Below are positions 1 to 18,775 of a DNA stretch of 38,572 bases, in pieces. This DNA comes from Opitutus sp. GAS368. Lineage in GTDB: Bacteria; Verrucomicrobiota; Verrucomicrobiia; Chthoniobacterales; Chthoniobacteraceae. Location of the stretch: contig CALQFT020000013.1 in the NCBI GenBank assembly GCA_943329925.2, positions 1 to 38,572 of the forward strand, read 5' to 3'. A program made the position numbers and the translations under genes. The notes under the pieces were generated by a model. That model saw only the letters and a list, made by a program, of their open reading frames with translations, did not search any database and was not told the DNA's origin. Numbering within the stretch: position 1 is the stretch's first letter; each line of letters starts with the position of its first letter.

Positions 1-1497
1 GCGCTGTGCGGCGGCACATTTGGATTGATGGGTGGGTGGCTGATCGATCGTTTTGGTCGTAAGCGCATCATGGCGGCCAGCATTTTTCTGTATGCATTCT
101 CGCCGTTTGCGGCGGCGTTCTCGACCAGCCTCGCAAGCTTTGTCTTCTTCCGTAGTCTCACCTTCGTTGGCGTGTGCATTGAGTTTATCGCAGCCATTAC
201 GTGGTTGGCGGAGTTGTTTGAAGACCCGAAACAGCGCCAATTTGCACTTGGATTTACGCAAGCGTTCGCCTCATTAGGCGGTATTCTGGTGACCGCATTA
301 AATGGTTGGATTGTAATACACTCAAACGAATTTACAGCGTTACCCATCCCCGATATTTTCAATGCCCATGCCTCATGGCGGTACACGCTAATGACTGGCA
401 TTTTGCCCGCGCTTCCTATCGCTCTGCTGCTGCCGTTTGTGCCCGAGTCTCGCGTCTGGCTGGATCGCCGTGCCTCGGACTCGTTCGCTCGACCCAGTCT
501 GGCGGGTTTGTTTACTCCGGAACTGCGCCGTACGACTTTGGTCACGGCGGCTCTGTCGGCGTGTGCTTACGCCGCAGCTTTTGGGGCTTTGCAACTCACA
601 CCGCTACGGATCATTCCTGGCGTGCCGGAACTCGCTGAGCAGCGTGCGCTTCTCAAGCCGCTTCAGGACGAGGCGAGGACGATCAACGTCGGTATTCTGG
701 AACTTGATCCAGCTTTGAAGGCGGGTTACGGCACGGTCCCGGGGCTGCGCGAATTAGCGGCAAAACGAGCCAAGAATCGTATTGCGTTCAGAGCGGCGCT
801 CAGGGCTGATGACAAAGCGCGGGCAGCGGAACTTGGTGCCGAATTCAAGGCACTAGGCGAGGCATTAGATCAACTCACCAGCACGGCCCCTGATGCGAAG
901 AAGAGCCTTGTAGATCGGGAAAAGCTGCTCAAACAACTCGGCGACAACCGGGAGAAACAGGAGACGCCGGATAAGGCGATTAAGGCACGGGGTAATGCCG
1001 CCCAGCTTTGGCAGGAGATGGGTGGTTTGATCGGCCGGATTTTACTCGCGATCCTAGTGGTTCTCGCAGTAACGCGCCGCAGGTTGCTCCGGATTTTTCT
1101 CATCCCGGGATTGCTTGCGGTTCCGCTGACATACTTCTCACTCTATCACACCGGAGGTGCTGGATTAAACTGGGCCATAGCAGTTTGTGGTCTTTTGGTG
1201 GTCGCGCAGTTCTCCTACTTCGGTGAGTTTCTGCCCAAGGTTTTTCCCGTGCATTTGCGCGGCACGGGTGGTTCCTTTGCGACAAACGTGGGGGGCCGTA
1301 TGATTGGGACTTCCGCGGCTTTTCTAACAACCAACATTCTGGCGCCGCTCATGCCCGGCGTTTCCACTTTCGACAAAGTGGCTTTTGCGGCCGGCGTAGT
1401 TGGCACAACGGTTTTTGCCATTGGATTTGCGCTGAGCTTTCTCCTTCCTGAGCCGACAGTCGAAAAGGCGGTGGAGCCTGCTCGCCTCGTACATTGA
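1..1497 (+). CDS. MFS transporter, 5' end outside window
   Basis: Major facilitator superfamily transporter, probably the exporter or importer for the product of the operon it opens. The reading frame is open from base 1, so the first helix and true start lie to the left. The MFS motif A between helices 2 and 3 is visible (GGWLIDRFGRKR, about 30-65 bp in). Hydrophobic helices follow, and 'FVPESRVWL' sits after the first six. Between helices 7 and 8 (about residues 200-335 of the visible part) there is a long hydrophilic, Lys/Glu/Ala-rich, probably helical segment that ordinary MFS proteins lack; by topology it should be periplasmic. The protein ends with three or four further helices. The next gene starts 46 bases downstream on the same strand. 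The family call is solid. The substrate is unknown. Confidence 0.85.
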   Translation, partial: ALCGGTFGLMGGWLIDRFGRKRIMAASIFLYAFSPFAAAFSTSLASFVFFRSLTFVGVCIEFIAAITWLAELFEDPKQRQFALGFTQAFASLGGILVTALNGWIVIHSNEFTALPIPDIFNAHASWRYTLMTGILPALPIALLLPFVPESRVWLDRRASDSFARPSLAGLFTPELRRTTLVTAALSACAYAAAFGALQLTPLRIIPGVPELAEQRALLKPLQDEARTINVGILELDPALKAGYGTVPGLRELAAKRAKNRIAFRAALRADDKARAAELGAEFKALGEALDQLTSTAPDAKKSLVDREKLLKQLGDNREKQETPDKAIKARGNAAQLWQEMGGLIGRILLAILVVLAVTRRRLLRIFLIPGLLAVPLTYFSLYHTGGAGLNWAIAVCGLLVVAQFSYFGEFLPKVFPVHLRGTGGSFATNVGGRMIGTSAAFLTTNILAPLMPGVSTFDKVAFAAGVVGTTVFAIGFALSFLLPEPTVEKAVEPARLVH

Positions 1498-1543
1498 TAT
1501 CTCCGAGAAAGACCGACTTTTCACAGACTAAAATTTCCTCTTT

Positions 1544-2614
1544 ATGACAGCCCCTACTCCCGAAGCAGCACACGAAGCGCTTGAATCACACCTGCGAGAA
1601 ATTGTTCAGTGGCATTTTAACCCAGAAACCGGCTCTCCATTTTGGCTGAACTGGGCTGCCAAAGCAGGCTGGGATCCCAGAGCTGAAATCAAAACGGTGG
1701 CGGATTTGCAAAAGTTTCCGCATTTTGAAGATGAATGGCTTCGTGATCTGCAGCCGGAAGTTTGGGTTCCAAAAGCATTTGCTGGACGCCCATTCAACAT
1801 CTTTGAGACCGGCGGCACTACTGGAATGCCCAAGCAGCGCATCGGTTGGGAGGACTACAAGGTGGATTACAGCGAGTTCAGCGATAAGATCAGCGACGAG
1901 CATTTTCCCCGTAATCATTACTGGCTGATGATGGGGCCCACTGGTCCGCGTCGTTTGCGTCTCGCCATCGAGCATCTTGCCAATGTGCGGGGCTCTTCGT
2001 GCTATTTTATCGATCTCGATCCCCGTTGGGTGAAGCGTCTGATTACTAACAAACATTTTGATCAGGCCAAGGCCTACATGGAGCATGTGGTTGATCAGGC
2101 CGCTAACATCTTAAAACATCGCAAGGTCAGCGGCTTGTTTACCACGCCAAAGCTCCTCGAAGCGCTGGCTGAACGAGTGAACATTTGGGACGCCGGCATC
2201 CGCGGTGTATTCTGCGGCGGTACGACGATGTTGCCGCAGTACACCCGCTTCATTGTGGAGGAGGTCCTCGAGAATCGCATCGGCTTTTATCCCACCTACG
2301 GAAACACCTTAATGGGGCTGGCTGCATCCGTTCCGCTGACTCCCGCAGACCAGTATTCTATTACTTATTACGCTCCGCAACCTCGTGCTATTCTTCGGGT
2401 TGTTGATCCAGAAAATACAGCGACAACCGTGGAGTACGATTCCTGGGGCCGCGTGGAACTCACCACCCTGACGCGTGAATTTTTCATGCCGCGCTTTCTT
2501 GAGCGAGACGAGGCTATTCGGCGCAAACCGCGTGGACAATACGCGTGGGATGGCGTGGCCGAGGTTCGGCCTTTTGGCGCAATGCAGAAGACCATCGTGG
2601 AGGGCGTCTACTAA
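1544..2614 (+). CDS. EhpF-like adenylate-forming enzyme (aryl/acyl-AMP ligase)
   Basis: Predicted to activate a carboxylic acid as its acyl-adenylate. It is 356 residues long, shorter than CoA ligases, like the phenazine-biosynthesis proteins related to EhpF and the LuxE/PaaK branch. The glycine/threonine-rich ATP loop is seen as FETGGTTGMPKQR at residues 88-99, and a GFYPTYGNT segment resembles the A5 region. EhpF, with EhpG, reduces a phenazine dicarboxylate towards griseoluteic acid. The next gene is EhpG-like and overlaps this stop by one base (TAATG), so the two probably work as a carboxylate-reducing pair. Given a chorismate lyase domain in the same operon, a benzoate-type substrate is a reasonable inference. 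There is no carrier-protein domain here. Family call good, substrate unproven. Confidence 0.75.
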   Translation: MTAPTPEAAHEALESHLREIVQWHFNPETGSPFWLNWAAKAGWDPRAEIKTVADLQKFPHFEDEWLRDLQPEVWVPKAFAGRPFNIFETGGTTGMPKQRIGWEDYKVDYSEFSDKISDEHFPRNHYWLMMGPTGPRRLRLAIEHLANVRGSSCYFIDLDPRWVKRLITNKHFDQAKAYMEHVVDQAANILKHRKVSGLFTTPKLLEALAERVNIWDAGIRGVFCGGTTMLPQYTRFIVEEVLENRIGFYPTYGNTLMGLAASVPLTPADQYSITYYAPQPRAILRVVDPENTATTVEYDSWGRVELTTLTREFFMPRFLERDEAIRRKPRGQYAWDGVAEVRPFGAMQKTIVEGVY

Positions 2615-4062
2615 TGGAAGCCTCAGAACTGAACACGCTGCCGCACTTGCCCGCGCTTCGTCGGGGACGGCCCTACGACAGTCTCGAAAAAACTGAGATC
2701 GTTGATCACAGTACGGGCAGGGTCGTGGCTGTGGTGAGCCAAGTGAATGCGGGGATTTTAAAAAAAGATCTCCAGCGCATCGATGAAGGCCGCGCGGCTT
2801 TGCGCAAGTTTTCTGTCGCGGAGCTTATTGAGATTTCAGCCAAGGCCGGCGAGTTGTTTTTGCACGGGACTCTGCCCCTAGGGGACCGCGGCCACACGCA
2901 ATCGGCGGATGATTATGTGCGCACTCTCTCTGGGACCAGCGGGTTGCCTCATGTCATGGTTCGCCGGAACATGGCGAAGATTCACTACGCACTTACCCAC
3001 GTTGGGACAGTGTTGAACGGACTCACGCGCGGACTGCCGATGGAAGTCATTGACCGGGGATATGGTGAGCAGAGCGGAGCGGCGGTTAGTTATTATCCTA
3101 CTACCCAAGCGCTTGGATTGGTGATGCCAAGCAATTCGCCCGCCGTGAACTCGCTTTGGCTTCCTGCCATCGCGCTCAAGACTCCCGTGGTGATTAAGCC
3201 GGGGCGTGAGGAGCCGTGGACTCCTTATCGTCTTATCCAGGCTTTCCTCGCTGCCGGTGCGCCCCCAGAGGCGTTTGGTTTTTATCCGACGGATCACGAG
3301 GGTGCGGGCGAGGTCATGCGTCTGTGCGGGCGGGCCCTGATCTTTGGCGATGCCAATACGGTCGCGCAATACCGTGACAACCCCAAGTTTTCCGTACACG
3401 GCCCGGGCTTTTCTAAAATCCTGCTCGGAGAAGATTGTGTCGAGCAGTGGCCGGAATATATCGAGCTGATGGCGGCCTCTATCGCCGAAAACGGTGGGCG
3501 CTCATGTGTGAACGCCTCGGCTGTAATAGTGCCGCGTTACGGAAAAGAAATAGCCGATGCTCTGGCGAAAATACTCGGTCCGGTGACTCCTTTGCGTTCC
3601 GAGGACGAGGGTGCAAAACTTTCCGGATTTGCGAATCCAAAGATGGCCGACTACATTGATTCAGCCATCGATGATGGACTAAAAGTCAATGGTGCTGAGG
3701 ATGTAACCGCTCGATACCGTAACGGGGAGCGGAAGGTAATTTTTGAAGGCGGCACTTTTCTACGTCCAACTATAGTGCTGTGCGATTCGTTCTCCCATCC
3801 GCTGGCAAATCGTGAGTTTCTTTGCCCGTACGCGAGTGTTGTGGAGGTTCCGCAGAGTGAGATGCTGCGGCAAATCGGAGCGTCTTTGGTGGTCACGGCA
3901 ATTACAAAGGACCCCGCGTTTACATCCCAGCTATTGGATTCTCCGCTTATCGAACGTCTCAATCTAGGGCCGATCTCGACGATGAAAATTTCGTGGGATC
4001 AGCCGCATGAAGGGAACATGTTTGAGTTTCTCTACAAACGGCGTTCGATAGAGCGCGCCTAG
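2614..4062 (+). CDS. EhpG-like aldehyde-dehydrogenase-superfamily reductase
   Basis: Aldehyde dehydrogenase fold protein of 482 residues, likely reducing the acyl-adenylate made by the preceding enzyme to an aldehyde. The start was set at the ATG of the TAATG overlap with the upstream gene; an in-frame ATG 69 bases earlier lies inside that gene and is less likely. Visible features are the nucleotide-binding region (LGLVMPSNSPAVNSLWLPAI, residues 167-186, then PVVIKPGREEPW) and the catalytic cysteine, C298, in NGGRSCVNAS. It resembles LuxC/EhpG-type acyl reductases more than oxidising ALDHs. It is followed after 12 bases by an alcohol dehydrogenase, which could take the aldehyde on to the alcohol. 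Function is inferred from family and position. Confidence 0.75.
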   Translation: MEASELNTLPHLPALRRGRPYDSLEKTEIVDHSTGRVVAVVSQVNAGILKKDLQRIDEGRAALRKFSVAELIEISAKAGELFLHGTLPLGDRGHTQSADDYVRTLSGTSGLPHVMVRRNMAKIHYALTHVGTVLNGLTRGLPMEVIDRGYGEQSGAAVSYYPTTQALGLVMPSNSPAVNSLWLPAIALKTPVVIKPGREEPWTPYRLIQAFLAAGAPPEAFGFYPTDHEGAGEVMRLCGRALIFGDANTVAQYRDNPKFSVHGPGFSKILLGEDCVEQWPEYIELMAASIAENGGRSCVNASAVIVPRYGKEIADALAKILGPVTPLRSEDEGAKLSGFANPKMADYIDSAIDDGLKVNGAEDVTARYRNGERKVIFEGGTFLRPTIVLCDSFSHPLANREFLCPYASVVEVPQSEMLRQIGASLVVTAITKDPAFTSQLLDSPLIERLNLGPISTMKISWDQPHEGNMFEFLYKRRSIERA

Positions 4063-4074
4063 AGCCTTTTTGCC

Positions 4075-5211
4075 ATGCTTCCGTTTGACTACCAACCGCG
4101 TACGAGACTCATCTACGGCGCGGGTACGCTTTCGCGGGTAGGGCAACTGGCGCGCGAATTGGGGGGCTCGCGTGTGCTCGTGGTGACCGATCTTGGAATA
4201 GTAGCCGCCGGGCACGCGGCTCGCGCGCTGGACGCGTTGCGTTCTGAGGGGATCGTCGCAACGATGTTTGATGGGGTGCGCGAAAATCCAGACGCAAGTG
4301 ATGTTGAGCGCTGCGTCGCAGTGGCTCGATCTGGGGACGTTGATTTGTTTGTCGGTCTCGGTGGCGGGAGCGCAATGGACACGGCTAAGGGAGCGAATTT
4401 CGTGCTCACAAACGGTGGAGAAATTGCTGATTACAAAGGGATAGGAAAGGCGCTCAGGCCAATGCTTCCCCTAATCGCCATCCCCACGACGGCGGGTACA
4501 GGAAGCGAATGTCAGTCTTTTGCTCTCATCAGCGATCCTGTCTCACATTTGAAAATGGCCTGCGGCGATCCTAAGGCCGCTGCAAAAGTTGCGCTGTTGG
4601 ATCCCGAGCTCACGCTCTCCCAACCGCCGAGAGTAACCGTCTGCACGGGAATTGATGCACTCGTCCACGCCTTGGAAACCGCGGTGACTAAAAAGCGCGG
4701 CGCCTTGTCCCAGTTGTTTTCGCGAGAGGCATTTCGTTTGTGCATCCATGCGCTGCCGAGGGTTCTATCCGTGCCGGGAGATTTGGCGGCGCGCGGCCAG
4801 ATGCTGCTTGGGGCTGCTTATGCGGGGATTGCGATTGAGAATTCGATGCTGGGTTGCACGCACGCGGCAGCCAATCCCCTAACTGCTAGGTACGGAGTAG
4901 CGCATGGGCAGGCGGTGGGTCTACTCGCGCTGGGCGTGCTTCGCCGCAACTTCCAGAATGCAGCCGCAGCAGACGAGTATCTGGCGCTGGCCCGTCATGC
5001 GGGTATGGATTCCGTGGATGAGTTGCAGACCCATTTTGCGGCGCTCTTGCCTCTTGCGGGTCTGCAAGTCTCGCTCTCAAAACTCGGGGTGATCAGGGAG
5101 TCATTGCCGGAGATGGCGGCTGAAGCAGCGAAGCAATGGACGGCTTCTTTTAATCCAGTGGAATATTCGGTATCGGATTTCGAAAGCCTTTACCAAGAGG
5201 TTCTTGAATGA
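4075..5211 (+). CDS. Iron-containing alcohol dehydrogenase
   Basis: Group III (Fe-type) alcohol dehydrogenase, 378 residues, the usual family length. The N-terminal half carries the NAD(P)-binding GGGSAMDTAK motif. The C-terminal half has the metal-site pattern: Asp in ALLDPELT, then His residues in GIDALVHALE, GCTHAAANPL and VAHGQAVG. The TTAGTGSE motif is also present. In this operon it probably interconverts the aryl aldehyde made by the EhpF/EhpG-like pair and the corresponding benzylic alcohol. Its stop overlaps the next start (ATGA), so the two genes are translationally coupled. Direction and substrate cannot be read from sequence. Confidence 0.85.
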   Translation: MLPFDYQPRTRLIYGAGTLSRVGQLARELGGSRVLVVTDLGIVAAGHAARALDALRSEGIVATMFDGVRENPDASDVERCVAVARSGDVDLFVGLGGGSAMDTAKGANFVLTNGGEIADYKGIGKALRPMLPLIAIPTTAGTGSECQSFALISDPVSHLKMACGDPKAAAKVALLDPELTLSQPPRVTVCTGIDALVHALETAVTKKRGALSQLFSREAFRLCIHALPRVLSVPGDLAARGQMLLGAAYAGIAIENSMLGCTHAAANPLTARYGVAHGQAVGLLALGVLRRNFQNAAAADEYLALARHAGMDSVDELQTHFAALLPLAGLQVSLSKLGVIRESLPEMAAEAAKQWTASFNPVEYSVSDFESLYQEVLE

Positions 5212-6350
5212 GCAATGCACGTTTTATTCGTCAGTTTTCCGGCATGTTGCTCAGCGCCTGTATTCTCGCGTTCGCTCCCGCAGTACACGCGGATTGGTTC
5301 ATGCACCGAGGCGGGCCACAGCTTGCCGGAGTTTCGTCGATGGACGCGGCGGAGTGTCCCAAAGAGGTTTGGAATTTCGCGACAGGAAAGCCGATCAAGG
5401 GCGGGGCTGCCATTGTTGGCGGCAAACTTTTTATTGGAGATGACGCTGGAGTTTTGCACGCGCTGAGTCTCGAAAAGGGCAGAGAAATATGGTCGTTCAA
5501 AACAGAAGGGCCGATAGAGGCCACGCCTCTAGTTCTCGGTGGTCGGGTTATTGTGGGTGCCGGGGATGGCATTCTTTACGCATTGGATTTCGAGACGGGT
5601 GCGCAGGTTTGGACTTACACCACGGGTGATAAGATTATCGGCGGCGCCAACACCGCAAAGAGTCCGGACGGTGCGAATGACTGGATTTTTATCGGGAGTT
5701 ACGACTCACAATTGCATTGTGTGGACGCGGCCACAGGCAAGGCGGTGTGGACATTTGCGGCCGATAATTACATCAACGGAACGCCCGCGGTATTGCCGGG
5801 TGGCGAGCTTATTTTTGGAGGCTGTGATTCTCAATTGCGCATGGTTTCCACGGTCGACGGCAAGCAGTTGCGTCACATTGAGGCCGATGCGTATATTGCT
5901 TCCTCAGTGGCGGTTGCTCCGGATGGAATGGCGTATGTTGGAAATTACGGAAATGTGGTGCTCGGTTTGAATCCAAAGGAGGCAGCAGTTTCTTGGACGT
6001 TTCGCAGTCGGAGTTTTCCTTATTTGTCCAGCGCGGCAGTTGTGGCAGATCGCGTTCTGATAGGGGGTGGGGATAAACGGTTGCACTGTATTGAGCGGCA
6101 GTCCGGGAAGGAGCTTTGGGAATTTACCACTCGCGGCAAAGTTGATGGCTCGCCCGTGGTGTGTGGGGATACTGTGGTGGTGGGAAGTTTTGACGGCCGA
6201 TTGTATGGCGTAGCGCTCGCCGATGGGGTGGAACGCTGGGCATACGACCTTGGCTCGCCGGCAACCGCATCCCCTGCAGTAACGGACGGTTGGATTGTGA
6301 TCGGCACCGAAGACGGAACAGTACACGCACTCAAAGTCCCAAAGAAATAG
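5208..6350 (+). CDS. Exported PQQ-type beta-propeller repeat protein
   Basis: Secreted or periplasmic beta-propeller of 380 residues. A signal peptide ends at about residue 28 (hydrophobic LLSACILAFAP, then AVHA before DWFMHRGGP). The rest is a run of repeats of the PQQ/BamB type, such as 'GVLHALSLEKGREIWSFKT', 'GILYALDFETGAQVWTYTT', 'SQLHCVDAATGKAVWTFAA' and 'KRLHCIERQSGKELWEFTT', giving roughly seven or eight blades. There is no extra catalytic domain of the methanol dehydrogenase type, so a scaffold or binding role is as likely as a true quinoprotein. It overlaps the upstream gene by four bases and a radical SAM gene follows two bases later. A second protein of this kind ends the operon. 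Confidence 0.8.
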   Translation: MSNARFIRQFSGMLLSACILAFAPAVHADWFMHRGGPQLAGVSSMDAAECPKEVWNFATGKPIKGGAAIVGGKLFIGDDAGVLHALSLEKGREIWSFKTEGPIEATPLVLGGRVIVGAGDGILYALDFETGAQVWTYTTGDKIIGGANTAKSPDGANDWIFIGSYDSQLHCVDAATGKAVWTFAADNYINGTPAVLPGGELIFGGCDSQLRMVSTVDGKQLRHIEADAYIASSVAVAPDGMAYVGNYGNVVLGLNPKEAAVSWTFRSRSFPYLSSAAVVADRVLIGGGDKRLHCIERQSGKELWEFTTRGKVDGSPVVCGDTVVVGSFDGRLYGVALADGVERWAYDLGSPATASPAVTDGWIVIGTEDGTVHALKVPKK

Positions 6351-6352
6351 TT

Positions 6353-7699
6353 ATGACCTCTGCCTCTTCGTCAGTACCAACGGCAAACGAAACTCCTGAT
6401 GCGGGCGAAACCACAGCAGGAAATTATTTTGTTTCCAACTATCCGCCCTTTCATTTTTGGGACCCTGGAACGGCGCGTCATCTGGGCGAATTGCTTTCAA
6501 AGCCCGCTGATCCTTTAACCCCTCTGGGTGTTTATTTTCATATTCCATTCTGCCGTAAACGCTGTCATTTCTGCTACTTCCGCGTTTATACGGAGCGTAA
6601 TGCGAGCGAGATTCAGCGTTACTTGGACGCGGGCATCGCGGAGCTAAAGCATTATGCGGCTACTCCTTTTGTCGCTGGGAGGCTTCCCCGCTTCGTATAT
6701 TTTGGAGGGGGAACACCGAGTTATCTGAGCGTAGCGCAACTCAAGTCGCTGAGTGACCGAATGAAGGAAATTCTGCCTTGGGAGCAGGCGGAGGAAGTGA
6801 CGTTTGAAGCGGAACCGGGAACCTTAAACGAAGGGAAACTAAGGGCGATTCGGGAGATGGGGGTGACCCGTTTAAGTTTGGGCGTTGAAAACTTCGATTC
6901 CCATATTTTGGAAATCAACGGGAGAGCGCATCGGGCCGACGAAATTCACCGCGCTTATGGTGCCGCGCGGGCGGCGGGTTTTCCGCAGATAAATATCGAT
7001 TTGATCTCCGGAATGGTCGAAGAGACTGAAGAGAATTGGCGTGAGAATGTGCGGAAGCTTATCGCGATGGAGCCAGATTGCGTGACGATTTATCAGATGG
7101 AAGTGCCCTACAACACGGGCATTTTCAAACAGATGAAAGCAGAGGGAAAGCTTGTTGCCCCAGTGGCGAATTGGGCGACCAAGCGCGCCTGGGCGGGCTA
7201 CGCGTTTGCTGAACTAGAGAAGGCCGGATACACCGTCACGAGTGGTTACACTGCGGTGCGGAATCCCGATCGCACAAAGTTCGTATACCGGGATTCTTTG
7301 TGGAAGGGCGCTGATCTAATCGGCGCGGGCGTCTCGGCGTTTTCACATCTTGGAGGGGTGCACTTTCAAAATATCACCGAGATAGAACAGTACATCGAGA
7401 CCACTGAACGGGGTGAGTTTCCGGTGTTGCGTGCCATGGCGACCACGCCCGAGGAGCGGATGATTCGCGAGTTAATTTTGCAAATGAAACTCGGCCGGGT
7501 ATCGGCGGAGTATTTTCAGCAGAAGTTTAGCGAGGACATTCATGTGCGCTTTGAATTGAATTGGAACGACTTAATCGCACAGGGGTTGGGGAGGTGGCAC
7601 GGCGGCTTCTTTGAGTTAACCCGCGAGGCACTCCTGAAAGTCGACTCGTTATTGCACGCCTTTTTCCTGCCACAACATCAGAACTCTCGTTACGTATGA
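6353..7699 (+). CDS. HemN/HemW-like radical SAM enzyme
   Basis: Radical SAM protein of 448 residues of the coproporphyrinogen III oxidase-like group. The cluster motif is FCRKRCHFCYF (CX3CX2C), preceded by GVYFHIP. YFGGGTPSYLS, FEAEPGTL and RLSLGVENFD follow in the HemN/HemW order. The C-terminus has a HemN_C-like region ending in 'FELTREALLKVDSLLHAFF'. The fourth cysteine that follows the motif in true HemN (FCxC) is absent, which argues against a heme-biosynthesis role and fits HemW, heme-degrading or tailoring subgroups. The ATG at 6353 was chosen because it lies just after the upstream stop; an earlier in-frame ATG is inside that gene. Its role in this operon is unknown; modification of the aromatic product is possible. 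Confidence 0.8.
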   Translation: MTSASSSVPTANETPDAGETTAGNYFVSNYPPFHFWDPGTARHLGELLSKPADPLTPLGVYFHIPFCRKRCHFCYFRVYTERNASEIQRYLDAGIAELKHYAATPFVAGRLPRFVYFGGGTPSYLSVAQLKSLSDRMKEILPWEQAEEVTFEAEPGTLNEGKLRAIREMGVTRLSLGVENFDSHILEINGRAHRADEIHRAYGAARAAGFPQINIDLISGMVEETEENWRENVRKLIAMEPDCVTIYQMEVPYNTGIFKQMKAEGKLVAPVANWATKRAWAGYAFAELEKAGYTVTSGYTAVRNPDRTKFVYRDSLWKGADLIGAGVSAFSHLGGVHFQNITEIEQYIETTERGEFPVLRAMATTPEERMIRELILQMKLGRVSAEYFQQKFSEDIHVRFELNWNDLIAQGLGRWHGGFFELTREALLKVDSLLHAFFLPQHQNSRYV

Positions 7700-9525
7700 G
7701 CGTGTCGTTTGAAGAATTGCTTTCTCCGCTGCGGCGCTTTCGGTCCGTGGAGTTTGCCACCTTCGAGGCCATTGCGCCCCGAGCGGTGCCTGAGCCTTTG
7801 CGCACGTTGTTAGTGCACGAGGGAGATATGACGTCGCGCCTTCAAGCGTTTCATCAAAGCGAAATTCATTTGGAGGTTTTAAAGTTAGAACGAGATGGAG
7901 GCTCCTATTTCCGCGAGGTGCTTCTGCGCGGGAATTTGAATGCAGGTCCGGTGGAGTACGGAGCGATTGAGATTCTTTTAGAGCATTTCGAACCGGAGCT
8001 GCAGCGTCAGATTCTGGAGGGGCGTGTGCCGTTGGGCGGGCTATTGAACGCAAGCGGGTTAAAATATCACAGCGAGCCTCAGGCCTACTTTTCGGTGCGG
8101 CATGACACGCAGCTTGCCCAATTGATGGGAGTTTCTGCCGAGCTGGCCATGTATGGGCGTTGCAATGTGCTGCGCTTGGAGTGTGGAAAGGTGCTTGCGC
8201 GCATTGTGGAAGTCCTTCCTGTTATTAATATAGAGAAAAAGGAGACAAAGGCTATGCCGTCTAAAGAGAAGTACGATGTCATTGTAATCGGCGGTGGGCC
8301 TGCGGGCGCAACCGCTTCTGCTTTGCTTTCTGCCAAGGGCCGCAGTGTGCTTCTTTTGGAGAAGGAGAAGTTCCCTCGCTATCACGTGGGCGAGTCGCTG
8401 ATGCCGTTTTGCTGGTTCACGCTTTCAAAGTTAGGGGTGCTCGAGGAGATGGATCGCATCGCCTTTACGCGAAAGTACAGCGTTCAGTTTGTGACGCCAG
8501 AGGGTAAGAAATCGCAGCCTTTTTACTTCTTCCAACATCTCGATCACCCGGCTGCAAACACCTGGCAGGTGGAGCGAGCGGACTTTGATTTGATGCTCTT
8601 GGAGAACGCAAAAAAGAAAGGCGTAGAGGTTCATGAGCGCACCCGCGTAGAGCGGGTCCTTAAGAATGAATGTGGGACTGTTGTGGGAGTGCAGGCGGTA
8701 GGGGTGGATGGTGTGTCCTTCGAGGTGTTCGCCCCAATTACCATTGATTGCTCTGGTCGCGAACAGGTTGCAACTTTGAAGGAAGGCTGGCGTGTACGTG
8801 ACCCTAAGCTGAACAAGCTTGCCGTATGGACTCTGTACAAGGGTGCCAAGCGGGACGAGGGGGTCGACGAAGGAACAACCACCGTCGCGTACGTACCTCA
8901 ACGCGGGTGGTTTTGGTACATTCCGTTGCGAGGGGACATTGTCAGTGTCGGAATCGTTGCGGAGCGGGACTATTTGTTTTCCTGCTCGAAGGATCCAGCA
9001 GAGATTATGCGGCGTGAGATAGAGAACAATGCGTGGATCCGCGAGTACCTTTCTGCTTCGCAGCAGACGGGGGAGTATTGGGTGACAGGAGAATATTCGT
9101 ATCGATCGCGTGCGTGTGCCTCGGATGGTTTGGTGTTGGCAGGCGACGCGTTTGCTTTTCTCGATCCGGTATTTTCCAGTGGCGTCTTTCTCGCACTCAA
9201 AAGTGGCGAGATGGCCGCGGAGGCGGTGGATACAGCGCTCTCGGAAGGAGTGATAAGCGGTTCATTTTTCGAGGAATATGGCGAGAGGTTGTGCGACTCC
9301 ATCGAGAACATGCGTAATCTTGTGTATGCCTTCTATGATGAAAATTTCAGTTTTGCCGACATGCTCCGCAAATACCCAGAAATGAGAGGTAAGCTCACGG
9401 ACTGCCTTATTGGCGACGTGGACGGCAAGGATTACAGCGATCTTTTCGCGAGGGTTGCCGAGTTCGCGGCGCTTCCTGAACCTATTAAACATGGCCGCGC
9501 GCCTATGTCCGTCGCAACAGTATGA
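7696..9525 (+). CDS. Chorismate lyase-like domain fused to FAD-dependent halogenase-like oxidoreductase
   Basis: A 609-residue two-domain protein. Residues about 1-178 look like a chorismate pyruvate-lyase (UbiC type): 'LRTLLVHEGDMTSRLQ', FREVLLRG with R73, VPLGGLL, and a terminal 'ARIVEVLP' with E172, in the places of the UbiC Arg and Glu. That reaction gives 4-hydroxybenzoate plus pyruvate. Residues about 190-609 are a flavoprotein: GGGPAG (199-204), KFPRYHVGES (225-234), WFWYIP (405-410, matching the WxWxIP halogenase motif) and LAGDAFAFLDP. This fits PltA/CndH-like halogenases, although related hydroxylases and reductases share some of it. The linker carries a ribosome site and ATG (8254), so a separate flavoprotein may also be made. 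Both ends overlap their neighbours (ATGA). Confidence 0.7.
   Translation: MSVSFEELLSPLRRFRSVEFATFEAIAPRAVPEPLRTLLVHEGDMTSRLQAFHQSEIHLEVLKLERDGGSYFREVLLRGNLNAGPVEYGAIEILLEHFEPELQRQILEGRVPLGGLLNASGLKYHSEPQAYFSVRHDTQLAQLMGVSAELAMYGRCNVLRLECGKVLARIVEVLPVINIEKKETKAMPSKEKYDVIVIGGGPAGATASALLSAKGRSVLLLEKEKFPRYHVGESLMPFCWFTLSKLGVLEEMDRIAFTRKYSVQFVTPEGKKSQPFYFFQHLDHPAANTWQVERADFDLMLLENAKKKGVEVHERTRVERVLKNECGTVVGVQAVGVDGVSFEVFAPITIDCSGREQVATLKEGWRVRDPKLNKLAVWTLYKGAKRDEGVDEGTTTVAYVPQRGWFWYIPLRGDIVSVGIVAERDYLFSCSKDPAEIMRREIENNAWIREYLSASQQTGEYWVTGEYSYRSRACASDGLVLAGDAFAFLDPVFSSGVFLALKSGEMAAEAVDTALSEGVISGSFFEEYGERLCDSIENMRNLVYAFYDENFSFADMLRKYPEMRGKLTDCLIGDVDGKDYSDLFARVAEFAALPEPIKHGRAPMSVATV
8236..8256 (+). 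promoter_or_regulatory. Internal ribosome binding site and possible second start
   Basis: Inside the fusion gene, AAAAAGGAG at 8236-8244 lies nine bases before an in-frame ATG at 8254 (residue 187). The flavoprotein domain begins a few residues later. This is one of the strongest Shine-Dalgarno matches in the window. It looks like a former intergenic junction that has lost its stop codon. Confidence 0.5.
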
Positions 9526-10826
9526 AACGCCCAGTTTTGCTGATAGCAGGATTGTTGCTCGTTATCGGATTGGCTTCGGCTGTGGCGGGGGATTGGCCTC
9601 GTTTGTTAGGGCCGGGCAATGATTTGCGCGTGGCGGTATCCGACGCGAAGGGGTTTTGGCCGGAGAGCGGGCTGGTGCGCGATTGGGATTTTTCCAAAGG
9701 AAAGGGCTGGGCACCGCCTGCGGTCGTAGAGGGAAAGGTGCTGCTCTTTCATCGCGAGGCGGGACAGGAAGTTTTGAGCTGTCTCGGTTTAGAGTCAGGC
9801 AAATCGCTCTGGCGCATGGGGTACGAGGTTTCCTACCGGGATCGGTATGGTTCGGGCGATGCGCCGCGGACCAGTCCAGTCGTGGCGGACGGCAAGGTTT
9901 GGATTTTCGGAATAACCGGGGTGTTGCATTGCGTGGAGTTAAAATCCGGGGCGGTTTTATGGAAGCGGGATTTGGGAGCGGATTATGCGATGGAACCGAA
10001 TTTTTTCGGGCACGGTTCGACGCCGCTTGTGATGGGTGGAAAAGTCATTGTGCTGATTGGTGGCTCCCAAGAGCGTTGCGTTGTGGCGCTTTCCGCGAAT
10101 GATGGGGCGGAGGTATGGGTCGCGAAGCACGCTTGGGGTGCTGGGTATGCGTCTGCGATCCCCGCGAAGTTCGGAGAGGCAACTGCGCAGCGGGATTGCG
10201 TATTGGTGTTCGCTGGAGGCCAGAGTCGTCCGGCGACAGGCGGGTTGTTGTGTTTGGACGCGGAGACGGGAAAAGTACTTGGAGAAGCACCTCACCGGGC
10301 AAAAATGGCGGAGTCCGTAAATGCGGCTTCTCCGGTTTTGGTCGGCTTGAATCGCGTGTTTACGACCGAGGCTTATGGCAGTGGAGGCGTCCTTAGCGAG
10401 ATTGGTGTGGATGGTTCGCTGCGGAAAATTTGGGGCACGGTGAAACTTGGATCACACTTTGGAACGCCGCTTTCCAAGGACGGGATGATTCTCGGCTTTG
10501 ACGGACAGAGTCCTCGTTTGGCGGAGTTAGTGTGTCTGGATGCGGTGAGCGGTGAGGAAAAATGGCGCTCGGATTTCGGAGGGAAGTTTGGGCGCGGAAG
10601 TTTGGTCGATCTTGGTGAAGAGGGTGCGCTTGCGCTGGGAGAATTCGGGGAGTTGTTGCGTTTCAAAGTGGGCACGAAAGGGCTGGAAGTATTGCAGCGC
10701 AGCAAGTTGTTCGAAGCGCCGGAAACATGGGGCCATCCGGTTTTGGCGGGCCGCCGGTTGTTGGTGATGCAGAACGAGCGTTCCGGCGATGGTGCGGCAC
10801 CGAGGCTGATTTGCTATCGGTTTTAA
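9522..10826 (+). CDS. Exported PQQ-type beta-propeller protein, last gene of operon
   Basis: Exported beta-propeller of 434 residues. A short positive N-terminus, the hydrophobic stretch LLIAGLLLVIGLASAV and a likely cleavage near residue 23 are followed by DWPRLLGPGND, a start common in planctomycete and verrucomicrobial PQQ-like repeat proteins (W/P-rich 'DWPRFRGP'). Repeats include 'EVLSCLGLESGKSLWRMGY', 'GVLHCVELKSGAVLWKRDL' and 'LVCLDAVSGEEKWRSDFG'. It overlaps the fusion gene by four bases and closes the operon. It is related in type but not closely similar to the beta-propeller protein at 5208. Role unknown; it could bind a redox cofactor or the aromatic product, or act as an assembly scaffold. 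Confidence 0.8.
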   Translation: MKRPVLLIAGLLLVIGLASAVAGDWPRLLGPGNDLRVAVSDAKGFWPESGLVRDWDFSKGKGWAPPAVVEGKVLLFHREAGQEVLSCLGLESGKSLWRMGYEVSYRDRYGSGDAPRTSPVVADGKVWIFGITGVLHCVELKSGAVLWKRDLGADYAMEPNFFGHGSTPLVMGGKVIVLIGGSQERCVVALSANDGAEVWVAKHAWGAGYASAIPAKFGEATAQRDCVLVFAGGQSRPATGGLLCLDAETGKVLGEAPHRAKMAESVNAASPVLVGLNRVFTTEAYGSGGVLSEIGVDGSLRKIWGTVKLGSHFGTPLSKDGMILGFDGQSPRLAELVCLDAVSGEEKWRSDFGGKFGRGSLVDLGEEGALALGEFGELLRFKVGTKGLEVLQRSKLFEAPETWGHPVLAGRRLLVMQNERSGDGAAPRLICYRF

Positions 10827-10898
10827 AAGGTCCCGTGTAAGGCGACAGATAGAAAAATTGGGGCGGAGAGTCTTGGTGCGCGAGCCCTCCGCACGGTG

Positions 10899-11621
10899 TT
10901 ATAAAATCAGTTTGATAGCGGCTGCTGTTGCTGAGAGCAGGAGTATGGTTTCGAACGCGCGTTGCGGAATCCGGCGTATTAGCCTTTTGCCTATAATGTT
11001 TCCAACAAGCACCAGCGGGGCGAGAGAAAGATCCAGAAGTAGGGATGGCATCTGGAGCAGGCCGAGGGATGCTGAGAAGGGCAGCTTGAAAACGTTAATG
11101 ATCAGGAAGAGCCACGCGCTGGTGCCGATGAGGTTTTCCTTTGGAAGTGCCAGTGCGATAAAGTAGACGGCCATGATTGGTCCCGCGGCGTTGGCGACCA
11201 TCGTGCTCACGCCAGCCCAGATACCCATGGCCCAGGCAAAGGCAATGGAGTTTGGAATTCGCCCGCCGAATTCCGGAAAAACGGTGCGTACGCCTTGCAG
11301 TAAGACGGTGCTTAACAGCATCCAGCCTAAGAGAGGTCTGAAACTTGCGTCTGGAAGGGAGCGCATCAGAAAAAAGCCCGCGACGATTCCTAGGATTGTC
11401 GGCGGCAGCATCCGCGCGATTTGTTGCCAAAGCGTATGTTGTCGGAAGGCGTGCACTGCGCATAGGTCGCCAATGATGAGAAGCGGCAGCAAAATTCCCG
11501 TGCTTTGGCGTGCGGGGAAAGCCTCCGCCATGAGGGCGACGGTGACGAGGCTCACGCCTGGAAAGCCGCTTTTGGAGAGGCCTACGCAAAGGGCTGCGAG
11601 CAAACAAAGGGCAGGAGGCAT
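10899..11621 (-). CDS. TauE/SafE family permease
   Basis: Integral membrane protein of 240 residues with about seven to eight hydrophobic helices and the TauE/SafE pattern near the N-terminus (CVGLSKSGFPGVSLVTVALM) and again mid-protein (GIWAGVSTMVANAAGPIMAVYF). Family members export or take up sulfite, sulfoacetate or related organosulfur anions, but most have no known substrate. It follows UbiE/MenG after an 18-base gap on the same strand, so they probably share a transcript. It converges with the large operon on the plus strand. The start ATG at 11621 gives a somewhat short first helix, but the family match is clear. Confidence 0.85.
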   Translation of the reverse strand: MPPALCLLAALCVGLSKSGFPGVSLVTVALMAEAFPARQSTGILLPLLIIGDLCAVHAFRQHTLWQQIARMLPPTILGIVAGFFLMRSLPDASFRPLLGWMLLSTVLLQGVRTVFPEFGGRIPNSIAFAWAMGIWAGVSTMVANAAGPIMAVYFIALALPKENLIGTSAWLFLIINVFKLPFSASLGLLQMPSLLLDLSLAPLVLVGNIIGKRLIRRIPQRAFETILLLSATAAAIKLIL

Positions 11622-11639
11622 CGTGCGTGCTGGTGTGCC

Positions 11640-12329
11640 TTAGCCGCGGCGTGCGATGTAAAGCGCTGCGATGCCGCCCAGAAGCGGTTGGTAATGTGCT
11701 TCTTTGTAGCCGTTAGCCTCCAGCCGCTCACACATCGCCGCTCCGTTTGGAAACGACTCGATGGAATCAGCAAGGTAATCGTAGGCTGAGCGCTGGCCGG
11801 TGAGCGCTGCGGCGAGGCCGGGTAAAAGATGGTGAAGATAAAAGCGATAGGGCGAGAGCAAGGGCGGCTTTGGCAACCCAAAGTCTAGGATCAAGAGATG
11901 CCCGTCTGGGGTCAGGACGCGCCGCATTTCGGCCAAGGCTTCGGTCCATGAGGCCATGTTACGCAAGCCAAAGGCGACGGTGACGACCTCAAAGCTGTCT
12001 TTTGCGAAAGGAAGTTGCAGCGCATCGGCAACCACGAGGCGCGGAAGTTGTTTGCGACGTGCAACGCGCAACATCGGCTCGCAAAAGTCCGCTCCAACCA
12101 GGAAGGCGTCCGGGCAGGCGCGCTTGAGGGCGCAGGCGAGGTCGCCGCTGCCCGTGGCCAAGTCCAGAATCGACTTGGGTTTCCACGCCTTCACAACATC
12201 GGCCGCGCGCAGCCTCCAGAGCACGTCGAACCCAGCACTCAAGAGGTGGTTGACGAGATCGTAACGCGACGCGATTTTTGAAAAATATGCGCGCACGCGA
12301 GTTGCCTGAATTGAGCCGTCTAAAGCCAT
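11640..12329 (-). CDS. ubiE: Demethylmenaquinone/ubiquinone C-methyltransferase UbiE/MenG
   Basis: SAM-dependent C-methyltransferase of quinone biosynthesis, 229 residues. Motifs in order are FSKIASRYDLVNHLLSAG (the UbiE signature after the N-terminus), the SAM loop ILDLATGSGDLA, VADALQLPF, and TVAFGLRNM, which is highly typical of UbiE/MenG. The C-terminal 'GGIAALYIARR' is also family-like. It methylates demethylmenaquinone to menaquinone (or the ubiquinone precursor). No other quinone genes are nearby, so the organism's quinone cannot be decided from this gene alone. Probable operon with the downstream TauE-type permease. Confidence 0.9.
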   Translation of the reverse strand: MALDGSIQATRVRAYFSKIASRYDLVNHLLSAGFDVLWRLRAADVVKAWKPKSILDLATGSGDLACALKRACPDAFLVGADFCEPMLRVARRKQLPRLVVADALQLPFAKDSFEVVTVAFGLRNMASWTEALAEMRRVLTPDGHLLILDFGLPKPPLLSPYRFYLHHLLPGLAAALTGQRSAYDYLADSIESFPNGAAMCERLEANGYKEAHYQPLLGGIAALYIARRG

Positions 12330-12436
12330 GGGCTATATGTTTGGCGTTGAAATCGGGGGATGGGAAGTCCGCTGTTGGAGGTTAGCAGGAAGGAATTGCA
12401 AGCTGTTGGCAGTTTGGCCCTCTGCTTGCTTATATT

Positions 12437-14053
12437 ATGGCTATGTCACTTCAGGCACTTAGCAATGGGCGCTTCCTCATCGTAGACGATGAGGCTTCCA
12501 ACGTGCGCTTGTTGGAGCGAGCGCTGGCCTTTGCCAAGTCTGGCCCGGTGGCTAGCACCACGGATGCGCGTAAGGCGCTGGAGTTGTTTCATTCCACTAA
12601 GCCGGACATCGTCCTGCTGGATCTTCACATGCCCTATGTGGACGGCTTCGCGCTCATTGCTCAGATCAAGGCGGCCCTTCCGCTTGGCGAGTATCTTCCT
12701 ATTCTCGTGCTCACGGCTGATGTGACATCTGAAACCAGGCAGCGCGCGCTAAGCAAGGGTGCGCAGGATTTTTTGACCAAACCGCTGGATCCCCATGAGG
12801 TGCTTTTGCGGATAGGCAATCTTCTGGAGACAAGATTTTTGCATATGGAGTTGCAGCGTCAAAACGGGGCCTTGGAGCGTCTCGTGGCACAGCGCACCAG
12901 TCAGTTAGAAGATGCGCTGCAACGCTTGACGGCAGCCCAGCAGCAGTTGGTGAAGCAGGAGCGTTTGCGCGCCTTGGGTATGATGGCGAGCGGCGTCGCC
13001 CACGATTTTAATAATGCTTTGACCATGGTGCTCGGGCACGGAGCGTTGCTGGAGCCTTTTTTTGAAAATGAGGCACCCGCTTCCGAGTGTGAAAAATTTC
13101 GCCATCTCATGGCCGCAGCGGAGGATGCCTCCCACGTCGTCACCCGTTTGCGCGACTTCTACCGGCCCGCGGATCAGGACGAACTGCGAGTGCCTGTGGA
13201 CGTGAACCTGTCTATCCAACAGGCAATTGTCCTAACGGCTCCGCGCTGGAGGGACAAAGGAAGGTCTGAGGGAATCACCATTGAAATTGAAACGGAGCTC
13301 CTCGAGGTGCCGACGTTTGTCGGGCATCCGCCGGAATTTCGGGAGGTGCTCACGAATCTTATTTTCAACGCCATCGACGCCATGCCCGGTGGCGGGAAGC
13401 TGCGATTTTCGACAGCATGCGAGGATGGTCTCATCATTGTAAAAGTTTCTGACACTGGCTTTGGGATGAGCGAAGAGGAGGCGAGTCGGTGCCTAGAGCC
13501 GTTTTTTACGACCAAGGGTGAACTCGGTACAGGGCTCGGGCTGGCAGCCGTTTACGGGTTTGTGCAGCGTTACGGGGGTTCTCTCGGAATAGACACACGC
13601 AAGGGCCACGGGGCGTCTTTCACCATCAAATTGCCGGCGGCTGGTACGTTGTTGCCACCGGCCCAAGGTCCGGCGTCCCCTGATGTGAGAGTGTTGCGCG
13701 TATTGGTCGTGGACGATCAAGAGATCATTCGGGAAATTATTTGTGGAATGCTGCGCGTTGAGGGACATATCGCCCATCCAGTGGAGGATGGGGTGGCAGT
13801 TTTAGCCGCGCTGGCGGAGGGTTCCTGGGATTTGGTCATCTCCGACCAGTCCATGCCTGGAATGACTGGGGCGCAGATTGCCTCGGAGGCGCTGGCGGCT
13901 GGGGTGGCGGTTCCGTTTATACTGTTGACGGGATTTGGAGATGAGATGCGCGCTAAGGGAGGCACTCCGCCGGGAGTGGATTTGCTTTTGAGCAAGCCGC
14001 TAACTTCCAGTCTTTTACAAAAAGCATTGCAGACGGTGTTCCCCGCAGCGTAG
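12437..14053 (+). CDS. Hybrid sensor histidine kinase with N- and C-terminal receiver domains
   Basis: Cytoplasmic two-component protein of 538 residues with no membrane segment. N-terminal receiver: FLIVDDEAS with D17/D18, phospho-acceptor D62 in IVLLDLHMP, K115 in FLTKPLD. A coiled-coil linker covers about residues 135-178. The phospho-acceptor His is H189 in GVAHDFNNALTMVLGH, an NtrB-like DFNN-type H-box. The ATPase domain shows N311 in LIFNAIDAMPGGG, D339 in SDTGFGM and GTGLGLAAVYG. C-terminal receiver: VLVVDDQE, D470 in LVISDQSMPGM, K520. It resembles response-regulator-led kinases driven by another phosphodonor. No output regulator is adjacent. It starts 107 bases from the divergent ubiE. 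An in-frame ATG at 12443 is an equally possible start. Confidence 0.9.
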   Translation: MAMSLQALSNGRFLIVDDEASNVRLLERALAFAKSGPVASTTDARKALELFHSTKPDIVLLDLHMPYVDGFALIAQIKAALPLGEYLPILVLTADVTSETRQRALSKGAQDFLTKPLDPHEVLLRIGNLLETRFLHMELQRQNGALERLVAQRTSQLEDALQRLTAAQQQLVKQERLRALGMMASGVAHDFNNALTMVLGHGALLEPFFENEAPASECEKFRHLMAAAEDASHVVTRLRDFYRPADQDELRVPVDVNLSIQQAIVLTAPRWRDKGRSEGITIEIETELLEVPTFVGHPPEFREVLTNLIFNAIDAMPGGGKLRFSTACEDGLIIVKVSDTGFGMSEEEASRCLEPFFTTKGELGTGLGLAAVYGFVQRYGGSLGIDTRKGHGASFTIKLPAAGTLLPPAQGPASPDVRVLRVLVVDDQEIIREIICGMLRVEGHIAHPVEDGVAVLAALAEGSWDLVISDQSMPGMTGAQIASEALAAGVAVPFILLTGFGDEMRAKGGTPPGVDLLLSKPLTSSLLQKALQTVFPAA

Positions 14054-17900: not shown

Positions 17901-18716
17901 ATGATTCGTTCGCTCTCTATAGCTTCTCTTGCCCTGGTTGTCGGCGTGACTGCCGCGCAGGCTGAAAAAATCGTCATTAAGGGCTCCGACACCCTCGGCG
18001 CAAAGCTGGTTCCTCAGCTCGCCGAAGCCTACAAGGCCGCCAATCCCGGCACCGAATTCTCCATCGCCGCCGAAGGGTCCACCACGGGCCTCGCCGCGAT
18101 CATCGATGGCAACGCCGACATCGGCATGTCCTCCCGTCGCGCAAAGCCCACCGAAGTGTCGGCCGCCAGCGCCAAGGCGGTAAACCTCACCCCGACCATC
18201 GTCGCCTATGACGGCATTGCCGTTGTGGTGAACGAAAAGAGCCCCCTCAAGGGCCTCACCAAGCAACAGGTCGAAAAAATCTTCACCGGAGATGTCAACG
18301 ATTGGTCCGCAGTGGGCGGCAACCCTGGCAAAATCTCCATCTACACGCGCAACACTTCTTCCGGCACCTACTCGGACTGGAAGGAATTGGCGATGAACAA
18401 GCGCGATTACGCCGGCGGCTCGCAGAAGCTGGCGGGTAACGAGCAGATCGTCGCCGAAGTGGCCAAGAATCCCAATGGCATCGGTTATGTGGGGCTCGCG
18501 TATGCCAAGTCCGCAGGGATCAAGGTGATCGCCATCGATGGCAGTCTTCCCACCGCCGACAAAGTGCGCGCGAAGACCTATGCGTACAGTCGCCCGACGT
18601 TCTACTTCACCAACGGCGAACCCGCTGGCAAGGCAAAGGCGTTTGTGGATTTCACGCTGAGTGCTAAGGGTCAGGCTATCGCCGAACAAATCGGGTTTGT
18701 TTCACTAGCTAAGTAA
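17901..18716 (+). CDS. pstS: Phosphate ABC transporter substrate-binding protein PstS
   Basis: Periplasmic phosphate-binding protein of 271 residues. The signal peptide MIRSLSIASLALVVGVTAAQA is cleaved before EKIVIKGSDTLG. Phosphate-contacting loops of the PstS family are visible: KGSDTLGAKL near the N-terminus, AAEGSTTGLAAII, IGMSSRRAK and TRNTSSGTYSDW. It delivers phosphate to the PstCA permease encoded downstream. The Pst genes run pstS-pstC-pstA-pstB-phoU, all on the plus strand. A strong hairpin lies between this gene and pstC, which would give more PstS than permease. Confidence 0.93.
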   Translation: MIRSLSIASLALVVGVTAAQAEKIVIKGSDTLGAKLVPQLAEAYKAANPGTEFSIAAEGSTTGLAAIIDGNADIGMSSRRAKPTEVSAASAKAVNLTPTIVAYDGIAVVVNEKSPLKGLTKQQVEKIFTGDVNDWSAVGGNPGKISIYTRNTSSGTYSDWKELAMNKRDYAGGSQKLAGNEQIVAEVAKNPNGIGYVGLAYAKSAGIKVIAIDGSLPTADKVRAKTYAYSRPTFYFTNGEPAGKAKAFVDFTLSAKGQAIAEQIGFVSLAK

Positions 18717-18733
18717 CTTATTTGTAACATATT

Positions 18734-18775
18734 GGAGTCCGCGCTGTAACACAGGTGCGGACTCCTTTTGTGTTT
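18734..18775 (+). terminator. Hairpin with T-run between pstS and pstC
   Basis: Arms GGAGTCCGC (18734-18742) and GCGGACTCC (18757-18765) with a 14-base loop, followed by TTTTGTGTTTTT. It begins 17 bases after the pstS stop. It probably acts as a partial terminator that lowers pstC-phoU expression relative to pstS, or as a full one if pstC has its own promoter. Confidence 0.75.

Follow-up and report, generated by a model that had tools for sequence, protein, structure and literature searches.

A gene cluster shared by some Verrucomicrobiota and Planctomycetota that may make and handle a chorismate-derived aryl compound

What is made by a bacterial operon in which a chorismate-lyase-like domain, a halogenase-like flavoprotein, a radical S-adenosylmethionine enzyme (rSAM) and a pair of putative aryl-acid-reducing enzymes stand among exported beta-propeller proteins? 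The question is raised by positions 1-10826 of a 38,572-nucleotide stretch of DNA from Opitutus sp. GAS368 (assembly GCA_943329925.2, contig CALQFT020000013.1), called here the window, which is a complete contig (C13) of its genome (3.8 Mb, 287 contigs, 93.5% complete); the nearest named relatives of this genome place it in the Chthoniobacteraceae. An earlier note, made from the sequence of the window, had read the eight genes of this region as one operon whose product would be a halogenated or hydroxylated 4-hydroxybenzaldehyde or benzyl alcohol. Given the comparisons described below, it is proposed with moderate confidence that these genes belong to a system that is conserved and inherited together in some Verrucomicrobiota and Planctomycetota and that makes and handles a chorismate-derived aryl compound. 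The earlier note is right on the genes and broadly right on the logic. What it described as one operon is part of a larger unit that is also more widely shared.

All eight reading frames are present on the + strand in the order that had been given (Table 1). Overlaps of one to four bases had been claimed throughout, and these are found at four or five of the seven junctions. EhpF and EhpG overlap by 1 base, and the iron-type alcohol dehydrogenase (Fe-ADH) and propC, rSAM and lyase, and flavoprotein and propD overlap by 4 bases each; at the propC-rSAM junction an ATG lies 2 bases past the stop, and an alternative GTG would overlap by 1. The remaining junctions are gaps, of 46 bases between the major facilitator superfamily (MFS) gene and EhpF and of 12 bases between EhpG and Fe-ADH. 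The operon had also been thought to be cut at the left edge. That edge is a contig end, and contig C170 overlaps window positions 1-149 exactly (149 identical bases); read on, C170 supplies the 5' end of the MFS gene (locus L003) and continues the operon upstream on the same strand with two further exported propellers, propB (530 aa) and propA (849 aa).

The main evidence for a shared system is the recurrence of these genes elsewhere. A pattern-based scan for EhpF in one genome for each of 84,980 species gave 133 confirmed relatives, of which the best 80 were kept as loci (L034-L113); their titles name Verrucomicrobiota and Planctomycetota and, in one case, Acidobacteriota, and a few titles give no group. 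The order propA-propB-transporter-EhpF-EhpG-FeADH-propC-rSAM-lyase-flavoprotein recurs in many of the 80 loci, in both Verrucomicrobiota and Planctomycetota, and chance does not give such an order. When only loci with enough contig are counted, propA or propB lies upstream within 7 kb of EhpF in 53 of 58, and a transporter (56/73), EhpG (45/66), Fe-ADH (34/59), rSAM (20/50) and the lyase (17/49) are found near it; the tightest linkage is thus propA-propB-transporter-EhpF-EhpG-FeADH. In other loci the MFS gene is replaced by an SSF symporter, which frequently comes with DUF3311 (a full-length SSF match is present in 27 loci), and four loci (L105, L106, L108 and L109) have a TonB receptor in addition. 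In the closest Chthoniobacteraceae loci that reach so far, propD comes after the lyase or the flavoprotein. EhpF itself forms a tight sequence group, with at least 65% identity to the window protein in every relative listed and 179 positions at least 95% conserved among 81 sequences.

Presence and absence of the genes tell the same story. The lyase profile was searched against 33 genomes, the window's own and those belonging to 32 of the 80 EhpF loci; the lyase is present in 32 of the 33, in single copy each, and in at least 17 of them on a different contig from EhpF. Among 97 relatives, EhpF is present in 31 genomes, the lyase in 32 and rSAM (at a cut-off of E 1e-100 or better) in 31; all 31 EhpF-positive genomes have the lyase and 30 have rSAM, and the sole lyase-positive, EhpF-negative genome (G033) is 73% complete. 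A better test of co-occurrence than these family counts is a phylum sample of 193 genomes, which gave seven lyase matches: the window's own, five strong (E 7e-30 or better) and one weak (E 4.7e-5). In this sample EhpF was searched in the lyase-positive genomes and, among the 186 lyase-negative ones, only in those also counted in the 97 relatives; all five of the other strong-lyase genomes carry EhpF, at 65-80% identity, and the weak-lyase genome does not. Taken together, these distributions uphold the claim that the genes are one functional unit, and the objection that their homologues might rarely co-occur fails because the genes do co-occur. Recent transfer between the phyla was considered, given that the EhpF tree needs four changes for Planctomycetota; since bins can be mislabelled, no claim of transfer is made.

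The comparison also shows that the unit consists of two modules, which are linked in some genomes and apart in others. Module A is propA, propB, an MFS or SSF transporter, EhpF, EhpG and Fe-ADH. Module B is propC, rSAM, the lyase and usually the flavoprotein, followed by a GT4 glycosyltransferase, a 4HBT/YbgC-type (hot-dog) thioesterase, a small membrane protein that has no match in Pfam, a PaaK-like ligase, a LolD-like ATPase and a 1096-aa FtsX permease. It is complete to the permease in 8 of 20 fetched regions (L145, L146, L148, L150, L153, L155, L162 and L163). In the window's genome, five of these genes are spread over other contigs: C183 (ligase and membrane protein), C11 (glycosyltransferase and thioesterase) and C29 (permease). 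The NCBIfam models nearest to the ligase are PaaK and the flexirubin ligase FlxY (E 1.1e-32), both matched below their cut-offs and FlxY far below. No polyketide synthase (PKS) or nonribosomal peptide synthetase (NRPS) had been in view for the earlier note, and likewise no PKS, NRPS, ketosynthase, carrier protein, dehydratase or ring-cleavage family was found among the recurrent neighbours given to Pfam, which were chosen representatives rather than a full search.

Other genes are met around module A. A MarR-type regulator (L042:3480-3968; a cluster in 34 loci, with one member Pfam-tested and the position checked in a few) lies on the minus strand upstream of propA, and on the window's side, in L003, a different gene stands in its place. 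In L058 (9182-9965), and also in L064 and L065, a gene pair is found between the SSF/MFS gene and EhpF; the L058 copies match nucleotidyltransferase and HEPN families, of the toxin-antitoxin-like kind.

If the system makes an aryl compound, the lyase domain would be the enzyme that draws on chorismate. That this domain is chorismate-lyase-like, as had been proposed, is supported by its AlphaFold model (pLDDT 90.9), for which Foldseek returns the DUF98 structure 2nwi as the best match (E 9.0e-8, TM 0.69/0.79); DUF98 structures take ranks 1-3, UTRA effector domains ranks 4-10 and UbiC (1g81) rank 11 (E 6.9e-5). The REV.L-like, PLG and GR stretches that the domain shares with UbiC and DUF98 (AF1396) align with Escherichia coli UbiC (hhalign probability 47, E 1.9e-4). 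R73 and E172, which do not vary among the 17 members, align with an R and an E of AF1396; R73 is also aligned in UbiC, and the UbiC alignment ends before E172. In UbiC these stretches have catalytic roles and the active-site residues are R76 and E155; Rv2949c is presumably a chorismate lyase of this same kind. Unlike UbiC and DUF98, the window domain has no Pfam match and, in a few species, is in frame with a flavoprotein. Thus, the domain, judged from its model, has the chorismate lyase fold and is predicted to work like one; because of the missing Pfam match, it is not filed as a member of either family.

The flavoprotein was called flavin-halogenase-like, and this description stands. Its best PDB matches are halogenases (8zop, 3e1t, 5dbj and 3i3l, of the 8zop/CndH/PltA/CmlS type), with which it shares motifs and overall sequence. 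In an alignment of 34 rows longer than 380 aa, which represent 33 distinct genes (one gene is contained in both L101 and L162), WxWxIP and DPxFxSG are kept in 34/34 and GxGxxG and the aligned Lys in 33/34; the row without GxGPxG is L145, whose gene is broken into two frames, and the row without Lys is L069. According to the part of a review that was available (PMC10696468), this Lys is crucial, such that its replacement abolishes halogenation, and WxWxIP is proposed to prevent hydroxylation. Unlike those halogenases, the protein has as its usual neighbour a chorismate-lyase-like gene, and no carrier protein, PKS or NRPS is present among the recurrent neighbours examined.

The lyase and flavoprotein had been described as a fusion. 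The frame is indeed continuous in four of the 12 genomes of the genus (the window's own, L034/G006, G004 and G010), where continuity in G004 and G010 was judged from equal open-frame lengths of both hits and G010 is cut by a contig end. However, 16 of 17 other full-length lyase genes are separate frames, with one continuous, and a general fusion enzyme is therefore rejected. Even in the window, an AGGAG sequence and an in-frame ATG at 8254 suggest that a separate flavoprotein may also be made.

The flavoprotein is not a constant member of the cluster. Of the 30 genomes of family sample f1 with a strong match to it, bit scores place the main subfamily in 19 and a second subfamily alone in 11. 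Strong matches are also present in the EhpF-negative genomes G076 and G082, and none was found in the EhpF genomes G007 and G008 (88% and 68% complete). Because some clusters lack the flavoprotein, halogenation probably belongs to the pathway everywhere, though this is not certain. As to its surroundings, the second subfamily adjoins a Na+/H+ exchanger-like gene (one member Pfam-tested) in 8 of 10 loci read (e.g., L164:8326-10976), and a LysR-type gene (one member tested) is near it in five loci.

The EhpF/EhpG-like pair announced by the earlier note matches two-component aryl-acid reductases. The EhpF-like protein has 31, 35 and 37% identity to the AMP-binding half of pairs with an aldehyde dehydrogenase (ALDH) on Pantoea, Burkholderia and Streptomyces plasmids, and 34% to a Streptomyces 'arylcarboxylate reductase' that adjoins a PKS and has no ALDH. 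The homology is full-length, and the GGTTG..PK adenylation loop and short EGVY C-terminus align with the Pantoea protein. The EhpG-like protein has 26, 25 and 28% identity to the three partners, and its Cys298 is invariant in 6/6 aligned sequences. The two genes are adjacent in the window and in the three plasmid records, where the pairs stand among aromatic biosynthesis genes, the Pantoea one in a phenazine cluster. As in the EhpF/EhpG system of griseoluteate, a phenazine, an AMP-binding enzyme of about 360 aa is directly followed by an ALDH-type reductase; unlike that system, the window pair forms its own tight sequence group, is followed by Fe-ADH and stands amid propellers and transporters, with no phenazine or aminohydroxybenzoate genes. 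GriC and GriD of grixazone are likened to the pair by described role rather than by sequence comparison: in the portion of the source at hand (PMC10179220), GriC makes the acyl-AMP of 3-amino-4-hydroxybenzoate, and GriD reduces this to the aldehyde. Taken together, these likenesses indicate that the pair is of the two-component aryl-acid-reductase type.

Among the other enzymes, Fe-ADH keeps D194, H198, H263 and H277, which we take to be its metal-binding positions, at 95% or more in 40 sequences. The best NCBIfam subfamily for the MFS protein is aromatic acid/H+ symport, at 72 bits against a cut-off of 418.55. In rSAM, the three Cys of CxxxCxxC are invariant in 13/13 aligned sequences, and the PDB matches include HemN (1olt, E 2.2e-48) and NocN (9p2u). 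It meets no curated NCBIfam cut-off of the listed equivalogs (HemN, HemW, HutW, STM4012); consequently, the heme chemistry of a HutW/HemN-like enzyme was not adopted.

The oddest fact about the system is that strongly conserved propellers usually stand at the front of this apparent pathway to an aromatic compound in cells without pqqC. The N-termini of propC and propD look signal-peptide-like by eye. PropB keeps 50-52% identity to the farthest rows, and its model (pLDDT 88.8) resembles BamB, tetrathionate hydrolase and quinoprotein dehydrogenases alike. The gene pqqC was found in one of 29 genomes searched, 25 of which carry EhpF: Chthoniobacter flavus (G026:C58:132932-133621), above the cut-off, a match that is itself the only positive check on the search, since 14 named control genomes gave none. 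Thus, 24 of 25 EhpF genomes searched have no pqqC. Alcohol oxidation dependent on pyrroloquinoline quinone (PQQ) by the propellers is weakened by this result, though PQQ could be taken up from outside, and the propellers are not filed as PQQ enzymes. A bolder and rather improbable idea is that periplasmic propellers in cells that make no PQQ are served by a redox cycle of aryl alcohol, aldehyde and acid outside the cell, or by a new aromatic redox cofactor. In its detailed form, an equally long shot, a (halo)hydroxybenzyl compound made from chorismate would be exported, oxidised outside by propA/propB, returned by the MFS/SSF transporter and re-reduced by EhpF, EhpG and Fe-ADH. The idea fits because the tightest linkage is that of module A and because propB is conserved despite the missing pqqC.

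Given all of these findings, a pathway can be proposed. The lyase domain would convert chorismate to 4-hydroxybenzoate, and the flavoprotein would halogenate the ring. The PaaK-like ligase and thioesterase would take the acid through a coenzyme A ester, and rSAM would modify the compound further. EhpF would adenylate the free aryl acid, EhpG would reduce the adenylate to the aldehyde and Fe-ADH would convert the aldehyde to the alcohol. The glycosyltransferase would cap the compound, and the ATP-binding cassette (ABC) system would export it; the MFS/SSF transporter and, in some loci, TonB proteins might act with the exported propellers in binding the compound or returning it to the cell. The aldehyde or benzyl alcohol of the earlier note is thus plausible as chemistry but incomplete as an account of the unit. 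Since the fuller clusters add a ligase, a thioesterase, a glycosyltransferase, a small membrane protein and an ABC/FtsX exporter, the pathway need not stop at a free aldehyde or alcohol; more probably it ends in an aryl compound that is modified, glycosylated and perhaps halogenated.

It should be noted that several observations weigh against this proposal. The order of the steps, and the action of EhpF on the product of the lyase, are guesses. The fold of the lyase domain is common to the non-catalytic UTRA domains, which rank between DUF98 and UbiC; the sequence match to AF1396/DUF98 is weak (PDB, E 0.015), and no Pfam lyase model matches any of the 17 members. rSAM and the lyase are within reach of EhpF in less than half of the loci with room, and one genome (G126) has EhpF, rSAM and much of module B yet no lyase match. 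The flavoprotein is lacking from L153 and L155, two of the eight fuller B modules; five loci of the genus (L035, L036, L037, L039 and L041) have propD immediately after the lyase, with no flavoprotein beside the lyase, and some genomes carry only the second flavoprotein subfamily, elsewhere in the genome. Finally, since presence follows genus, the family-level counts represent few independent events.

Some of these observations lead to other explanations. The pathway might operate without a halogen, with the flavoprotein hydroxylating or dehydrogenating an aryl intermediate. In NCBIfam the flavoprotein does match the monooxygenase QhpG (E 1e-35) and the geranylgeranyl reductase family, its score against the CmlS halogenase model falls far short of the cut-off (189 of 900 bits), and both the homologue without Lys and the clusters without a flavoprotein fit such a reading. 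The near-complete retention of GxGxxG, WxWxIP and Lys, together with the reported roles of the last two and the best PDB matches, points to halogenation instead, and the halogen-free pathway is regarded as a possible but clearly less favoured alternative. Alternatively, the lyase-fold domain may be a UTRA-like ligand-binding domain, the aryl acid coming from elsewhere. The ranking of UTRA domains ahead of UbiC and the failure to match a Pfam lyase would agree with this, as would the PHROGs search, in which the sole match was an insignificant helix-turn-helix family (E 0.25). However, DUF98 is the best fold match, the domain shares aligned stretches with UbiC, R73 and E172 never vary, and no significant match to a DNA-binding domain was found; a binding role for the domain therefore appears unlikely.

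A system for uptake and breakdown has also been weighed, in which the transporter, TonB receptor and propellers would import aryl alcohols or aldehydes from plants for oxidation by Fe-ADH and the ALDH-like protein. Both oxidoreductase classes are reversible, and importer-type transporters, in four loci with the TonB receptor, head the cluster. What speaks against breakdown is the remainder of the gene set, since the lyase-fold domain, adenylating EhpF, glycosyltransferase and ABC exporter point to synthesis, as do the biosynthetic surroundings of the three EhpF/EhpG pairs elsewhere and the lack of a ring-cleavage family among the representatives given to Pfam; breakdown is accordingly considered doubtful. 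A fatty-acid/polyketide extension, as for an aryl polyene, flexirubin or xanthomonadin, is not favoured either. Aryl polyene and flexirubin clusters are alike in having a hot-dog thioesterase, a ligase (here the one with the FlxY match), a glycosyltransferase, a halogenase-type flavoprotein and an exporter; they differ in that ketosynthases, acyl carrier protein and dehydratase are missing here from the neighbours given to Pfam, ketosynthases also from the genes beside the fuller modules, and in that the exporter is of the LolD/FtsX type. The synthesis and handling of a chorismate-derived aryl compound thus remains the preferred reading.

Table 1. Features of the cluster in the window (positions are those of the window)
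Feature	Position	Strand	Basis
MFS transporter, 3' 498 codons; 5' end on C170 (L003)	1..1497	+	Pfam MFS_1 E 1.2e-18, above cut-off
EhpF-like (GriC-type) putative aryl-acid adenylating enzyme, 356 aa	1544..2614	+	PDB EhpF (3l2k/3hgu) E 5.5e-44
EhpG-like (GriD-type) ALDH-superfamily putative acyl reductase, 482 aa, Cys298 kept	2614..4062	+	Pfam Aldedh
Iron-type alcohol dehydrogenase (Fe-ADH), 378 aa; D194, H198, H263, H277 kept	4075..5211	+	Pfam Fe-ADH E 7e-49
propC, exported PQQ_2-type beta-propeller, 380 aa	5208..6350	+	Pfam Beta-prop_ACSF4 E 3.6e-51, PQQ_2 E 1.1e-45
HemN-type radical SAM enzyme (rSAM); C68, C72, C75 numbered from GTG at 6350	6353..7699	+	Pfam Radical_SAM and HemN_C
Chorismate-lyase-fold domain (predicted), N-terminal part of 609-aa frame	7696..8253	+	AlphaFold model and Foldseek
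AGGAG, nine bases 5' of in-frame ATG at 8254; possible own flavoprotein start	8240..8244	+	sequence
Flavin-dependent-halogenase-type FAD (flavin adenine dinucleotide) protein, C-terminal part of frame	8254..9525	+	PDB halogenases; Trp_halogenase-type
propD, exported PQQ_2-type beta-propeller, 434 aa	9522..10826	+	Pfam PQQ_2 E 1.7e-20

Beyond the cluster, TauE-like and UbiE/MenG-like genes, named from reading their translations, converge on the end of the operon (10899-12329, minus strand). The UbiE/MenG-like gene (11640-12329) is not favoured as a member of the unit; it lies on the opposite strand and, in the locus comparison, was seen in the window alone. Promoter and terminator patterns at 9500-12500 are no more frequent than expected by chance, with one weak inverted repeat at 11993-12093, and Rfam and tRNA scans of the window gave no match. 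Further on, a phosphate uptake set (PstS-, PstC-, PstA-, PstB- and PhoU-like, again from reading translations) follows a porin-like gene (17901-23246).

A literature search found no paper that joins these enzymes with Verrucomicrobiota or Planctomycetota, a result that does not prove novelty since subscription papers were mostly outside its coverage. One paper links Chthoniobacter, a halogenase and a biosynthetic gene cluster (PMC6195506); its accessible part notes only the origin of homologues of the halogenase Bmp2, those from the ocean being mostly from Verrucomicrobia (64%), and a third from Chthoniobacter. The system described here is rated as a new family of gene cluster assembled from known enzyme kinds. 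Wood-rot fungi run a chlorinated anisyl alcohol cycle, and the redox cycle outlined above, if true, would be its bacterial counterpart. Since Chthoniobacter flavus Ellin428, a named isolate, carries the system, an organism is at hand in which it is directly testable. To our knowledge, little is known of the small molecules of Verrucomicrobiota, which are common in soil, lakes and the sea, and the system is kept by a number of soil, lake and sea bacteria. Its marker genes (EhpF, lyase and rSAM) are present in 12 of 12 sampled genomes of the window's genus and are common to Planctomycetota, so that the system resembles a core trait rather than an antibiotic made here and there. It may also help to place the Verrucomicrobia and Chthoniobacter halogenase homologues that the accessible part of PMC6195506 reports from ocean data.

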